Assembly (NCBI GenBank): GCA_013299115.1
Contig: JAAFKA010000041.1
Coordinates: forward strand, 1-37,436
Reading direction: 5' to 3'
Length of the DNA stretch: 37,436 nt
DNA from: Cytophagales bacterium
GTDB lineage: Bacteria; Bacteroidota; Bacteroidia; Cytophagales; Thermoflexibacteraceae
Within the stretch, counting starts at the first letter, position 1. Each line of letters opens with the position of its first letter. Positions 1 through 31,500 of the stretch are shown here, one piece after another. Under the pieces are notes generated by a model. That model searched no databases, had not been told where the DNA came from, and saw only the letters and a program-made list of their open reading frames with translations. The translations under genes and the position numbers were made by a program.

Positions 1-870
1 CATACACTTTGCTTGCACCTGTTAAACCTGTGATAGTCAAGCCTTTAGCTGTAATATTACCTGTTAAACCTGTGGGCTGGGTTAAACTGTAATTACTTGC
101 TGCTGTGCCTGAAATGGTATAACCTGTAATAGTAATAGGTTTGTTTGTGCCAACTGCTGCGGTTGCAAAATTGCGGACTGGTGTACCTCCCAGTGTAACA
201 TTTGCTAAGTCGGCAGTTTCTACGCCAACTAAATTGGCTGTGCCTGTGGTGGTGGCAGTTGTCAAGGCATCATACACTTTGCTTGCACCTGTTAAACCTG
301 TGATAGTCAAGCCTTTAGCTGTAATATTACCTGTTAAACCTGTGGGTTGAGTCAAGGTATAATTTCCTGCTGCTGTGCCTGAAATGGTGTAACCTGAAAT
401 GGTAATAGCAATTCCTGTACCTACATTGGCAGTTGCAAAATTGCGAACTATTGTACCTCCTAAGGTTACATTTGCTAAGTCGGCAGTTTCAACACCAACT
501 AAAGTTGCTGTGCCTGTGGTGGTGGCTGTTGTCAAAGCATCATACACTTTGCTTGCACCTGTTAAACCTGTGATAGTCAAGCCTTTGGCTGTAATATTAC
601 CTGTTAAGCCTGTGGGTTGAGTCAAGGTATAATTTGTTGCTGCTGTGCCTGAAATGGTATAACCTGTAATAGTAATAGGTTTGTTTGTGCCAACTGCTGC
701 GGTTGCAAAATTGCGAACTATTGTACCTCCCAGCGTAACATTTGCTAAGTCGGCAGTTTCTACGCCACTCAAAGCTGCTGTGCCTGTGGTGGTGGCAGTA
801 GTCAAGGCATCATACACTTTGCTTGCACCTGTTAAACCTGTGATAGTCAAAGGTTTGGCTGTTACAGAAC
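1..870 (-). repeat. 270-bp tandem coding repeats (90-residue YDG-like modules)
   Basis: The same DNA phrase, CATACACTTTGCTTGCACCT on the plus strand, recurs at 1, 271, 541 and 811, exactly 270 bp apart. The units between are nearly identical at the nucleotide level, with only scattered substitutions. This suggests recent amplification or homogenisation, and the array continues beyond the window. Confidence 0.95.
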
Positions 871-3313
871 TGCTTGGCATAGCTACATTTACATTACTTG
901 CCCCTGAACTTGACAAAACAATATTACCCGAATAAGAACCTACGGGTGCTGTTGATTTTAGGCGAATGAAAACTTGGGTACTTGCAATAGTTCCCGCAGC
1001 ACCTACGGTTACAGTATTTGTAAAAGTAGAATTATTCAAAGAAACTTCAAAGTTGGTGCTGGGCGGTGTTACCAAAATTCCTGCGGTCATATTTGCACCC
1101 GATACGTTGAAACTTGTGGAAGAGGAGGCTGTGCCATAAACAGTGCTGACTGCCGAAGGGGTGCCTGTGGTGGAAATGGTAGGGGTAGCAACAGGATTAT
1201 TAAATTGCATTATTCTATGTCCGCCTACATTGGCTACCAAAATTCTGTTGTTTACCCAATCAAATGTAACTCCTCTTGGCGATGAGAAACCATTTTGAGT
1301 TGTAGTAGAGCCTGTATTAGAAGTATAATTTGATTGCCCTAATACTGCATCTGCATTTGCCCCGTTAGTTTTTGAATTAGCATTGTTAAAACGCAATACT
1401 CTGTTATTGGTAAGGTCGCAAACATATAAATTGCCATTAAAATCTGAACTCAAACCCACGGGACCCTGCATTCTATTTTGGGTAGTGGCAGAAGTGTTTA
1501 TGCCGTAGGCTGTTTGCCCTAAAACGACATCGGAAGTGGTAACATTAGAAACAGAAAGTGCATTGTTAAATTTAACAACGCGGTGATTAGATTGTTCGGC
1601 TACCCACAAACTTGTTCCTATGATAGCAATACCAACAGGAGTAAATAAATCTGATGCTGTACTGCCTGTTGTTCCACTGCCAAAACTTACATCATAGCTT
1701 GCTCCAGAAGTGGCTTTAAGGGCAGCTTTGTTATATCGCCTGACATAATTACCTGTAGATTCGGCAACAAACAAATTGCCTTCATTATCCATTTTGATTT
1801 CAGACGGAGAACTTAGTCCAGTAAATGAACCTGTTGCAGTAGCCCCACTTGATGCACTATTGGCATTGTTGAACCATAAAACCCTACCATTTGTAAAATC
1901 TCCGACCCAAAGTCTGCCCACATTATCTACAAAAATCGCAGCAGGTTGGCTCATTTGGTTTAAGGCTGTGCCAGATGTATTGGCAGTAAAAGTGGATTGC
2001 CCAAATACTGCTTCGGCTATTGGATTGCTGCTATTGATTGGGTATGCAAAACGCAAAACTCTATTATTGCTTCTATCAGCTACATACATTTTCCCATTTG
2101 CATAATCAATGGCAATGTTTCTAACACTATTAAATTTCTGTGAGGTAGTGCCTGATGTTGCTGTAGTAAAATCTGGTTGTCCTATGACTACATCTGCATT
2201 CATTCCGTCTGTATAATTAATGGTTTTGGCTGCACCTGTGGTAAAATTGCTGGCAGTGCTATAACCTGTGCCTCCTCCATTGGTAGCATAAGGTCTGTAA
2301 TAAACCGTAGAGGCTGCGGGTAAATTTTGCACCACAATAGCAAATACGCCTGTGCTGATGTTGCCCGAAGCCACTACTTTGTTGTCTGCAAGGGTTGGGG
2401 TTGTGTTGGAGGTACTCCACACAATGCCCGTTTCTGCAATTCCTGTACCTGCGGTTACATTGCCACCCAAAACAGCCAAATAAGAGTCGACTTGGGTGTG
2501 AGTAGGTGTGGTAACAGTAGGAACAGGAGGAGCTAATCTAATGCTAAACGCAATGTGAATATAGCAACAATGCCCTGTGGCTGTTCGGCTCATTGCCACA
2601 CTTGCAGCCCCAGCTTTGGTGCTTATGCCATAATGACCAAAACCCGAAGGAACAGCAAAAGCTGTAAAATTAGTAAGGGTTTGCCCTATTCCCGCAGTTG
2701 GAATAGGTGTAGCCAATGAATGAAAACTGTCATAGAAATCAAACACCAAATCATTTGCTTGGCTGGTTACATTTAAAGTGCTGGTTGTGCCAATAGCAGG
2801 TGCAGGTGCCGACACTATACCAGATGTTGGTGTAATCTGATTTACATTTTGATAGACCGAAGCAGATACAATTTTGGTTGTATTACTGCCATTGGCATTG
2901 TTTGCTACCACGTTTGCAACTGTTGGCGTGGCACTTGTGCCTAATGCCAAAACAAAAACAGCATCATTAGCCACATTAGCATCATTGACTTCGCTGATTT
3001 TTGTCATTGAAGTTACGCCAAAAGTAGCCGAAGCAGGGGTAATGGAAGCTGCATCGGAAAAAGTTACGACCAGCAACCTATTAGTTCCCGCAGGGGCAGA
3101 GAAACTTGTGAGGGTAGTTGTGCCTGATGCAGAGGTGGCAGTGCCTAAGGCAGCAACCTGTGCGGCGGCAAGCATTGGGAGTAACACCATTGCCCAAACC
3201 ATTGGCAGGGTGCGAAAAAGCACCACTGCCAAGGTTGAAAATAACCATTGGCAAGGCAAATAAGCCACTGCCAAGGTTTGGGGCAGAAATTTTTGTTTAA
3301 TGTAGCTGTTCAT
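1..3313 (-). CDS. Large secreted NHL-propeller and YDG-repeat surface protein (N-terminal part; continues off the left edge)
   Basis: An unbroken frame runs from ATG at 3313 to the window edge, 1104 codons with no stop; I checked every codon. Residues 1-51 form an unusually long hydrophobic leader ending in LPMLAAAQ, probably a Sec signal peptide. Residues 55-255 are a Thr/Ser/Ala-rich beta domain. About 260-360 resembles a fibronectin III-like domain (TVYYRPYATN). About 370-705 holds six NHL-type blades with motifs such as LYVCDLTNNRVLRF, giving a beta-propeller. About 708-815 is an Ig-like domain. From about 815 on, a 90-residue module (KVYDALTTAT ... ITGYTISGTA) repeats three times and a fourth begins, resembling the YDG/MBG modules of filamentous adhesins. 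It is probably exported and cell-surface or extracellular; a type IX sorting domain may lie off-window. ATG37 is an alternative start. Ligand and role are unknown. Confidence 0.85.
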   Translation of the reverse strand, partial: MNSYIKQKFLPQTLAVAYLPCQWLFSTLAVVLFRTLPMVWAMVLLPMLAAAQVAALGTATSASGTTTLTSFSAPAGTNRLLVVTFSDAASITPASATFGVTSMTKISEVNDANVANDAVFVLALGTSATPTVANVVANNANGSNTTKIVSASVYQNVNQITPTSGIVSAPAPAIGTTSTLNVTSQANDLVFDFYDSFHSLATPIPTAGIGQTLTNFTAFAVPSGFGHYGISTKAGAASVAMSRTATGHCCYIHIAFSIRLAPPVPTVTTPTHTQVDSYLAVLGGNVTAGTGIAETGIVWSTSNTTPTLADNKVVASGNISTGVFAIVVQNLPAASTVYYRPYATNGGGTGYSTASNFTTGAAKTINYTDGMNADVVIGQPDFTTATSGTTSQKFNSVRNIAIDYANGKMYVADRSNNRVLRFAYPINSSNPIAEAVFGQSTFTANTSGTALNQMSQPAAIFVDNVGRLWVGDFTNGRVLWFNNANSASSGATATGSFTGLSSPSEIKMDNEGNLFVAESTGNYVRRYNKAALKATSGASYDVSFGSGTTGSTASDLFTPVGIAIIGTSLWVAEQSNHRVVKFNNALSVSNVTTSDVVLGQTAYGINTSATTQNRMQGPVGLSSDFNGNLYVCDLTNNRVLRFNNANSKTNGANADAVLGQSNYTSNTGSTTTQNGFSSPRGVTFDWVNNRILVANVGGHRIMQFNNPVATPTISTTGTPSAVSTVYGTASSSTSFNVSGANMTAGILVTPPSTNFEVSLNNSTFTNTVTVGAAGTIASTQVFIRLKSTAPVGSYSGNIVLSSSGASNVNVAMPSSSVTAKPLTITGLTGASKVYDALTTATTTGTAALSGVETADLANVTLGGTIVRNFATAAVGTNKPITITGYTISGTAATNYTLTQPTGLTGNITAKGLTITGLTGASKVYDALTTATTTGTATLVGVETADLANVTLGGTIVRNFATANVGTGIAITISGYTISGTAAGNYTLTQPTGLTGNITAKGLTITGLTGASKVYDALTTATTTGTANLVGVETADLANVTLGGTPVRNFATAAVGTNKPITITGYTISGTAASNYSLTQPTGLTGNITAKGLTITGLTGASKVY
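3197..3236. repeat. Palindromic element, copy 1, inside the signal-peptide coding region
   Basis: Inverted repeat with arms AACC-a-TTGGCA-g-GGTGC and GCACC-ac-TGCCAA-GGTT around a GAAAAA loop. It lies wholly inside the start region of the surface protein gene and encodes part of its hydrophobic leader. The same core recurs at 31462-31489. Confidence 0.8.
3243..3278. repeat. Palindromic element, copy 2, inside the signal-peptide coding region
   Basis: Inverted repeat AACC-a-TTGGCA-a-GGC, loop AAATAA, GCC-ac-TGCCAA-GGTT. Outer arms are identical to copy 1, which starts 46 bp away. The two copies encode the related peptides TLAVAYLPCQW and TLAVVLFRTLPMVW. Confidence 0.8.
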
Positions 3314-3468
3314 TTTGGTAAAATTTTGGTGTGTAAAAATTGGACAAATAAAATTGCTAAGTTTATACGTGATTTAGTTACAAAGATAGGAAAATATAGG
3401 GCAAAAATAAATAAAGTGGGGAATATTTTGAATTTTTGAACTTTTTGTTGATTACCAATTAGCCATAA

Positions 3469-3507: not shown

Positions 3508-3530
3508 AGATAGGGTGCGAAAATAAACTA

Positions 3531-3560
3531 TTGGCAGGATGCAAAAAGCACGAGGTTGCC
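3531..3560. repeat. Degenerate copy of the TTGGCA/GGTGC palindrome
   Basis: TTGGCAGGATGC-AAAAA-GCAC followed by GAGGTTGCC preserves the order of the element found at 3197-3236, but the arms no longer pair fully. GGGTGCGAAAA just upstream (3514-3524) looks like another fragment. Confidence 0.45.
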
Positions 3561-5449: not shown

Positions 5450-5642
5450 TTTTGAATGTTGAATGTTGAACATTTTTTGAGAATGAAAATGACTTTGGCA
5501 GTGGCTGGTAGCAACTCAGCTTTTTGCCCTGCCAACAGCTGTTTTCAAAAATTTATTAGTTGTTATTGCCCTCTCAAAAACTCTTTTTCATAAACTAAGA
5601 TGATAATAACCAAACAATATTTGTAAGCACAAGCAACAAGAC

Positions 5643-14662: not shown

Positions 14663-14700
14663 AGGAATTTTGAATTTTTAGTTTTTTTGTAATGTTTCGT

Positions 14701-14782
14701 GAATGTAGCATACGCTTTAGCATGTGAAATTTGCAACGCAAATGCAAGAAAAAAATCACACGCTAAAGCGTATGTTACATTC
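14701..14782. repeat. Large inverted repeat of two ACGCTTTAGCGT-type elements
   Basis: The 27-base arms at 14701-14727 and 14756-14782 are complementary at 25 of 27 positions, containing CATACGCTTTAGC and GCTAAAGCGTATG. A smaller hairpin, ATTTGC-aac-GCAAAT (14729-14743), sits in the loop. It separates the divergent Uma2 and esterase genes. Confidence 0.8.
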
Positions 14783-18109: not shown

Positions 18110-18137
18110 GAATGTAGCCTACGCTTTAGCGTGTGCC
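18110..18137. repeat. ACGCTTTAGCGT palindromic element, single copy
   Basis: GAATGTAGCCTACGCTTTAG continuing to CGTGTGCC lies between the amidohydrolase start and the end of the DUF4276-like gene. Its right half (CTACGCTTTAGCGTGTGCCT) is identical and in the same orientation as the first arm at 20028-20047. Confidence 0.8.
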
Positions 18138-18168
18138 TATTTTTAGCCAAGTCTAAGTTGGGCGTAGT

Positions 18169-19991: not shown

Positions 19992-20024
19992 ATTTTTATT
20001 CTTTTGAGTAGTTAGATTACATCC

Positions 20025-20078
20025 AACCTACGCTTTAGCGTGTGCCTGATAAAAATGCCACACGCTAAAGCGTAGGTT
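20025..20078. repeat. Perfect inverted repeat of ACGCTTTAGCGT elements
   Basis: The 20-base arms AACCTACGCTTTAGCGTGTG (20025-20044) and its exact complement (20059-20078) flank a 14-base loop. It lies between the hslV stop and the ATPase start, where it can also act as the hslV terminator. Confidence 0.85.
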
Positions 20079-20086
20079 ACATTCAT

Positions 20087-23588: not shown

Positions 23589-23612
23589 TCTGGTTAGTAG
23601 ATTAGTTTTCTA

Positions 23613-23690
23613 TCACACGCTAAAGCGTATGTTACATTTTCACACGCTAAAGCGTATGTTACATTTTCATACGCTAAAGCGTATGTTACA
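23613..23690. repeat. Three tandem 27-bp ACGCTAAAGCGT palindromic elements
   Basis: Copies start at 23613, 23640 and 23667 with a strict 27-base period (TCACACGCTAAAGCGTATGT, then TACATTT). The third has CATACG instead of CACACG. The elements lie head to tail, upstream of the ArsR gene and of the divergent rhodanese gene. Confidence 0.9.
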
Positions 23691-23747
23691 ACAAGTGGCA
23701 ACTTACATAATTTTTTCAAAACACTTAAAAAGTAAGTAGTATTTTTT

Positions 23748-31448: not shown

Positions 31449-31500
31449 ATTTAGATACGATTGTCAAGGTGCAAAAGCACCATTGCCAACGTATCTAAAT
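31449..31500. terminator. Hairpin terminator containing the TTGGCA/GGTGC palindrome core
   Basis: Outer arms ATTTAGATACG and CGTATCTAAAT pair perfectly, and the inner core GGTGC-AAAA-GCACC-a-TTGCCAA is nearly the same as the element at 3197-3236. It separates the convergent DUF481 and receptor genes. Confidence 0.8.

Follow-up and report, generated by a model that had tools for sequence, protein, structure and literature searches.

A high-copy, REP-like palindrome that lies mostly between genes has very probably entered the Sec signal peptide of a large protein gene in a Cytophagales bacterium, where two units of it are read in frame. The repeat is presumably mobile, and the leaders that carry it are predicted from their residues to work as signal peptides. 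The gene lies at one end of the window, by which we mean the whole stretch of 37,436 nucleotides that was analyzed (contig JAAFKA010000041.1, called C36 below). Four features define the locus.

2..3313, minus strand: gene for a large protein with NHL repeats and YDG domains; an open reading frame (ORF) that runs off the contig end (Pfam YDG 2.1e-40, NHL 1.2e-20).
3158..3313, minus strand: predicted signal peptide of 52 codons, the last being the Q after the cleavage site; translation MNSYIKQKFLPQ-[elements]-WAMVLLPMLAAAQ; the orthologue reads MKNYLKQKLLLLCLMALSFIVHQSYGQ without the element.
3243..3278, minus strand: palindromic unit of family B, 36-nt version, in-frame reading TLAVAYLPCQW (covariance model R1, 54.8 bits; this unit is one of the 18 used to build R1).
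3197..3236, minus strand: palindromic unit of family B, 40-nt long-loop version, in-frame reading TLAVVLFRTLPMV (R1, 58.7 bits; likewise among the 18).

The unit at 3243-3278 is translated first and the unit at 3197-3236 follows in the same orientation after a 6-nt gap, so that together they take up about codons 13-39 of ORF 3313->2. The protein begins MNSYIKQKFLPQ[TLAVAYLPCQW]LFS[TLAVVLFRTLPMV]WAMVLLPMLAAAQVAALGTATSASG, with the elements in brackets. The 40-nt copy retains an arginine in its core (VLFRTL). Behind the element stands WAMVLLPMLAAA, a hydrophobic run of 12 residues. Both units have the same anatomy: an AACC clamp, a TTGGCAG stem, a T bulge, GG..CC, a loop, the complementary arm, a second T bulge and GGTT. 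Folding was applied to the leader units and one unit of a sister family. Alone, 3197-3236 folds at -24.6 kcal/mol (z -6.6) and 3243-3278 at -18.3 kcal/mol (z -4.1); the 151-nt region around them gives -54.4 (z -5.0), and the initiation region (3294-3343) is unstructured. The tandem pair of inverted repeats reported in the early codons by a preliminary description is thus confirmed as two intact copies with high model scores and stable folds.

The same description had asked for a genome-wide count of the motif, and this establishes a repeat family. The bacterium's own genome (5.5 Mb) has 183 matches to the strict core TYGGCAGTGG-N3-16-CCCTGCCRA, and the reversed control has 0. Together with the fold z scores, this speaks against chance similarity. 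A known Rfam RNA is disfavored as well, since a comparison with 5 sources brought no family to its gathering score. All 183 matches are contained in 81 pieces (410 kb) assembled from the loci and the stretches around matches. With looser arms, four more units bring family B to 187, in 91 clusters. Most are 36 nt long (120 units), followed by 35 (26), 40 (16), 37 (14), 39 (9) and 34 nt (2). Two or more units occur in 44 of the clusters. Of the neighboring pairs, 52 are inverted (35 '+-', 17 '-+') and 44 direct (28 '++', 16 '--'), and arrays occur too. By mechanical count, 140 of the 187 lie outside ORFs of at least 100 aa. Mixed inverted and direct neighbors and arrays resemble the REP, BIME and REPIN families.

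The common plan is a 4-bp clamp, a 7-bp stem, a one-base bulge, GG/CC, a variable loop and a one-base bulge on the opposite side. When 18 distinct units were aligned, every pair cell held a standard pair, and the covariation score exceeded that of all 500 shuffles; copies differ by paired changes. Pairs changed on both sides number only two, a count equaled or reached in 289 of 500 shuffles, ten of the 13 pairs are invariant, and the pattern used to choose the units leaves little of the arms free to vary. The evidence that selection acts on the hairpin is for these reasons modest.

R1 matches at E 0.001 were found in at least 11 of 59 genomes (own included): at least 34 in a same-genus genome, at least 15 in another genus of the family, and at least 9 and 11 in two genomes of another family, where the six loci read have different arms and loops. 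All counts per genome are lower bounds, since the filters were strict and at most 115 candidates were scored in each. An exact-pattern scan of an 84,980-species collection, from which records of this and near genomes may be absent, returned three stretches; Oscillospiraceae account for two and Occallatibacter savannae for the third, and we regard all three as chance matches.

The signal peptide of the window gene is one of several that carry the repeat. Forty-seven units overlap an ORF of at least 100 aa by the mechanical count: nine belong to six leader loci and seven to six other loci; the remaining 31 were set aside by hand because their short or array ORFs were judged not to be genes. A seventh leader locus, on C12, falls outside the 47, as it has an 80-aa ORF only; it is probably a pseudogene. 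This gives leader loci on C1, C12, C31, C35, C36 (the window), C44 and C64, and by hand count 7 of 13 in-gene loci are leaders, or 6 of 11 when the duplicates C35/C44 and C49/C52 count once. For C1 the start was taken at the second ATG (MSKN); the first (MNRN), 14 codons upstream, is possible. All seven leaders have K/R near the start, a hydrophobic core and a terminal A-Q, which matches the Bacteroidetes signal peptidase I pattern, or Q-rule, of PMC5837995.

The remaining in-gene units are scattered. They lie in a pair of integrases on C49 and C52 (Phage_integrase), before the T9SS C-terminal sorting domain of a C23 protein (Por_Secre_tail), in an RHS-core protein on C24, and in two ORFs, at C12:54239 and on C18, with no Pfam or NCBIfam family. 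The ORFs around the C23 unit overlap, so this gene may be broken, and the C24 unit is near the gene start and so possibly outside the gene. Two more in-frame units occur in relatives: L116 encodes a LamG/PSD1 protein, and L139 an AAA protein that resembles anti-phage ProA, under that model's cut-off.

The leaders differ in arrangement. C36 holds a tandem pair, and C1 and C12 a single unit each; in C64 one unit is accompanied by the remains of another (score 26, where 500 shuffles reached at most 22). C31, C35 and C44 hold an inverted dimer, in which the forward unit forms the hydrophobic core and the reverse 37-nt unit reads TIGRA(E/K)(K/R)ATA(E/K)V, a charged stretch. C35 and C44 represent one duplicated event and C36 and C64 share an arrangement, which leaves maybe four or five independent events. 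A leader profile search of 12 genomes (own included; matches up to E 10 in 11 of them) gave a best E of 0.0447 outside the own genome. As relatives gave no leader hit under E 0.04, the evidence for adoption comes from a single genome.

In the C31 leader the forward unit has lost its right arm. Its place (L189, ~2660-2690) is taken by CTCCCCCTTTGGGGGCTGGGGGG, itself partly an inverted repeat, and a similar stretch, CCCCCTTTGGGG, stands directly ahead of the ATG of a C23 paralogue (L238). These stretches hint at another repeat feeding a signal peptide.

Does the element contribute anything to these leaders? Signal peptides tolerate insertions, and it could be a neutral passenger; we consider this an account to be taken seriously, though not the likelier one. 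In the window gene and C31, hydrophobic runs of 12 and 11 residues are retained behind the element, which by its sequence may therefore be a tolerated extension rather than needed, and copies in a soluble phase are tolerated in other proteins. C35, C44 and C12 argue against a mere passenger: apart from the element, no hydrophobic run in them exceeds 5-6 residues, so that here the element seems to supply the hydrophobic core.

The length of the loop sets the phase in which a unit is read. In the forward frame of the leader cores, the 40-nt units read T(L/S)AVVLF(C/R)TLPMV and alike, and 16 of 16 are open, with a mean Kyte-Doolittle hydropathy of +1.8. The same frame is open in 59 of 120 units of 36 nt (hydropathy +0.5) and in all 26 of 35 nt (+0.4; e.g., TSAVAASPADG), and these 35-36-nt versions sit elsewhere in other proteins. 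Half of the clusters that bear a 40-nt unit are leaders (5 of 10), against 2 of the 81 others (Fisher p 1e-4, from a test formulated post hoc on clusters that are not all independent). The 37- and 34-nt units, with hydropathies of +1.9 and +2.1 and 16 of 16 open, are as hydrophobic, and none was found forward in any leader, which counts against a pure phase rule.

The repeat probably spreads like other REP-like DNA, and copies that land in genes would survive if the frame is open and the product harmless or useful, that is, in the hydrophobic phase in leaders and in a soluble phase elsewhere. Charge, hydrophobicity and a cleavage site are all that a signal peptide requires, and the 40-nt version is therefore able to serve in leaders. 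Because signal peptides accept many hydrophobic stretches, an element whose open frame is hydrophobic finds a natural landing place in them. In the inverted dimer, the charged n-region (TIGRAEKATAEV) would come from the reverse unit and the hydrophobic core from the forward one. It is conceivable, and for now a tentative idea, that the 40-nt sub-lineage (TLAVVLF-TLPMV phase), as a single unit, a tandem or an inverted dimer with a TIGRAEKATAEV n-region, is a portable signal-peptide module that repeatedly replaced or extended native ones. If so, a selfish repeat gains a safe and useful niche within genes.

The palindromes might instead be retained for their mRNA hairpins, which would slow or regulate translation or protect the mRNA, with the hydrophobic peptide secondary. 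The hairpins are very stable. A hairpin is indifferent to coding phase, yet the leader copies favor the loop length with the hydrophobic frame, and we regard this explanation as improbable.

Relatives that lack the element were compared for the window gene, C31, C12 and C35/C44. A same-genus orthologue of the window gene (L242) matches it at 82% over 219 mature residues. It has an ordinary 27-residue signal peptide without the element (MKNYLKQKLLLLCLMALSFIVHQSYGQVAALGTATSANG, against MNSYIKQKFLPQ...AAAQVAALGTATSASG in the window), and the start and n-region are alike, MKNYLKQKLL in the window protein and MNSYIKQKFL in the orthologue. The match indicates that translation of the window gene starts upstream of the element. 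Removing the 27 residues between LPQ and WAM leaves a window leader of 25 residues, close to the 27 of the orthologue, which points to an in-frame insertion into a pre-existing signal peptide. The two units would have inserted at the boundary of n-region and h-region. C31 also has an element-free orthologue (L233, 67%), the C12 locus an element-free paralogue on C23 (L238, MQTFKNLIIGFFGILFLISSVSVDAQN), and C35/C44 more distant element-free relatives (L259, 43%; L254, 36%). The proposal that an intergenic repeat invaded the gene and was adopted as signal peptide is supported by the 183 matches against 0, the element-free orthologue and the six further leader loci.

The preliminary description had also considered that the repeat masks the true start. 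Translation would then begin downstream, at codon 37, and the palindromes would be non-coding 5'-UTR hairpins. An in-frame ATG does lie in the right arm of the 40-nt unit and would give MVWAMVLLPMLAAAQ, which contains the most hydrophobic 12-residue stretch of the whole window leader. Moreover, PMC3733652 judges most N-terminal REPs of three other species non-coding and ascribes most N-terminal ones among intragenic REPs to misannotated starts. The downstream start is nevertheless disfavored and very unlikely: the orthologue keeps the start and n-region upstream of the element, no K/R would be left ahead of the h-region, the upstream ATG lies in unstructured DNA, and in C35/C44 a downstream start leaves only MVSQAQ/MVSFAQ ahead of the mature part. 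Least likely of all is an uncleaved membrane anchor, which the long window segment (52 residues) with more than one hydrophobic stretch might suggest; the A-Q site at the end of all seven leaders, and relatives with ordinary short leaders ahead of the same mature start, speak against it.

Adoption of a repeat as signal peptide has partial precedents. Like REP and REPIN sequences, the units are 34-40-nt imperfect palindromes with single-base bulges, in high copy, mostly extragenic, and found as dimers and arrays; some REP units also lie within ORFs (PMC3733652). REP repeats end in a GTAG or CGTC tag according to the same paper. Unlike these, family B has the hairpin foot AAC[CT]..[AG]GTT with no GTAG/CGTC, and family A, the sister family, ends mostly in TACG..CGTA; also unlike REPs, the units are used repeatedly in leaders. 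Rickettsia palindromic elements (RPE) are in-frame palindromes of ~150 bp in unrelated protein genes, metabolic genes among them, as PMC10969869 describes, and RPE-4 and RPE-6 are equated with intragenic REP-type repeats of R. conorii in PMC3733652. The likeness is in-frame insertion into protein genes (here seven leader and six other loci, and two more in relatives); the differences are units of 34-40 nt rather than ~150 bp, the absence of the CGTC tag, and leaders in 7 of 13 in-gene loci. The closest precedent for a repeat-derived signal peptide is YAPL/RU-2, a MITE of Yersinia described by Delihas. According to PMC2229807 this mobile palindromic repeat is ~168 bp long and its translation is hydrophobic; a signal peptide is predicted for some of its in-frame fusions, and in YPO1552 the repeat contributes part of that signal peptide. 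The Yersinia element is larger; the present case has a REP-sized unit, seven loci in one genome, element-free relatives and a reading phase that depends on loop length. Searches of an open-access library turned up no title that treats REP units as signal peptides, and within that scope three aspects are new: recurrence in one genome, element-free relatives that settle the start, and the link to loop length.

It is plausible that an IS200-like TnpA or a RAYT mobilizes the palindrome. The own genome has three Y1_Tnp genes, and no RAYT gene clearly flanked by units was found among them. The candidate mobilizer is an IS200-like TnpA gene on C20 (L192:3713-4308), whose stop is followed, after 81 nt, by an almost symmetrical family-B unit. 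The Y1_Tnp gene on C11 matches the RAYT model below its cut-off (54.1 of 80 bits), and its nearest unit is 2.5 kb off.

Three further features of the window are related to the repeat.

3526..3551, minus strand: degraded remnant (3' part) of a family-B unit, 40-nt version, located upstream of the window gene (local alignment).
5492..5540, plus strand: intergenic family-B-like unit with a long loop, 19 nt where the usual inner loop stands (R1, 24.8 bits).
31456..31493, minus strand: family-A sister palindrome between convergent ORFs (R1, 31.0 bits).

The unit at 5492-5540 is absent from the preliminary description. A decayed copy had been proposed there near 3531. The alignment upholds it as the 3' part of a 40-nt unit: 25 of 27 columns are identical to the AACT version, with one gap and one mismatch, and the score of 42 compares with 23 for the best of 500 shuffles. 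The structure model does not recognize it (5.1 bits). The preliminary description also placed the core in a terminator at 31449-31500. A related core is real, but it belongs to family A; a terminator scan of 31449-31500 matched no terminator pattern, and the label of a canonical terminator is not supported. Family A (TACG TTGGCAATGG..CCTTGACAA TCGTA) has the same architecture as family B, and the inner palindrome of both, GGTGC-N2-8-GCACC, occurs 102 times against 17 in the control. The unit at 31456-31493 sits inside a 52-nt palindrome specific to this copy (31449-31500; -24.9 kcal/mol, z -6.9).

Other family-A units (own-genome L001, L003, L007, L012 and others) also stand at the tip of longer palindromes, with flanks that are self-complementary yet different from copy to copy. 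For 27 units in the fetched pieces the mean perfect run in the flanks is 4.70, against 0.73 when re-paired and 1.89 in the best of 1000 shuffles. In family B the effect is weak (186 units; 1.02 against 0.58, best shuffle 0.78). Among eight close pairs, one (C3:59394) reads rc(S)-unit-S-unit'-rc(S) and one (C39:2025) does so partly, as if the target were copied inverted on insertion. The window also holds a second palindromic family of different sequence (CACACGCTAAAGCGTATGTTACATTC and its inverse) at 14700-14782, 18110-18143, 20019-20084 and 23606-23693, as singles, inverted pairs and a tandem array with a 27-nt period.

Entry of the palindrome into signal peptides would show a non-coding repeat turning into protein sequence more than once in a genome. 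Relatives with and without the insertion form a comparable set for weighing exaptation against mere tolerance. For annotation the leaders are a warning that N-terminal REPs are not always misannotated starts.
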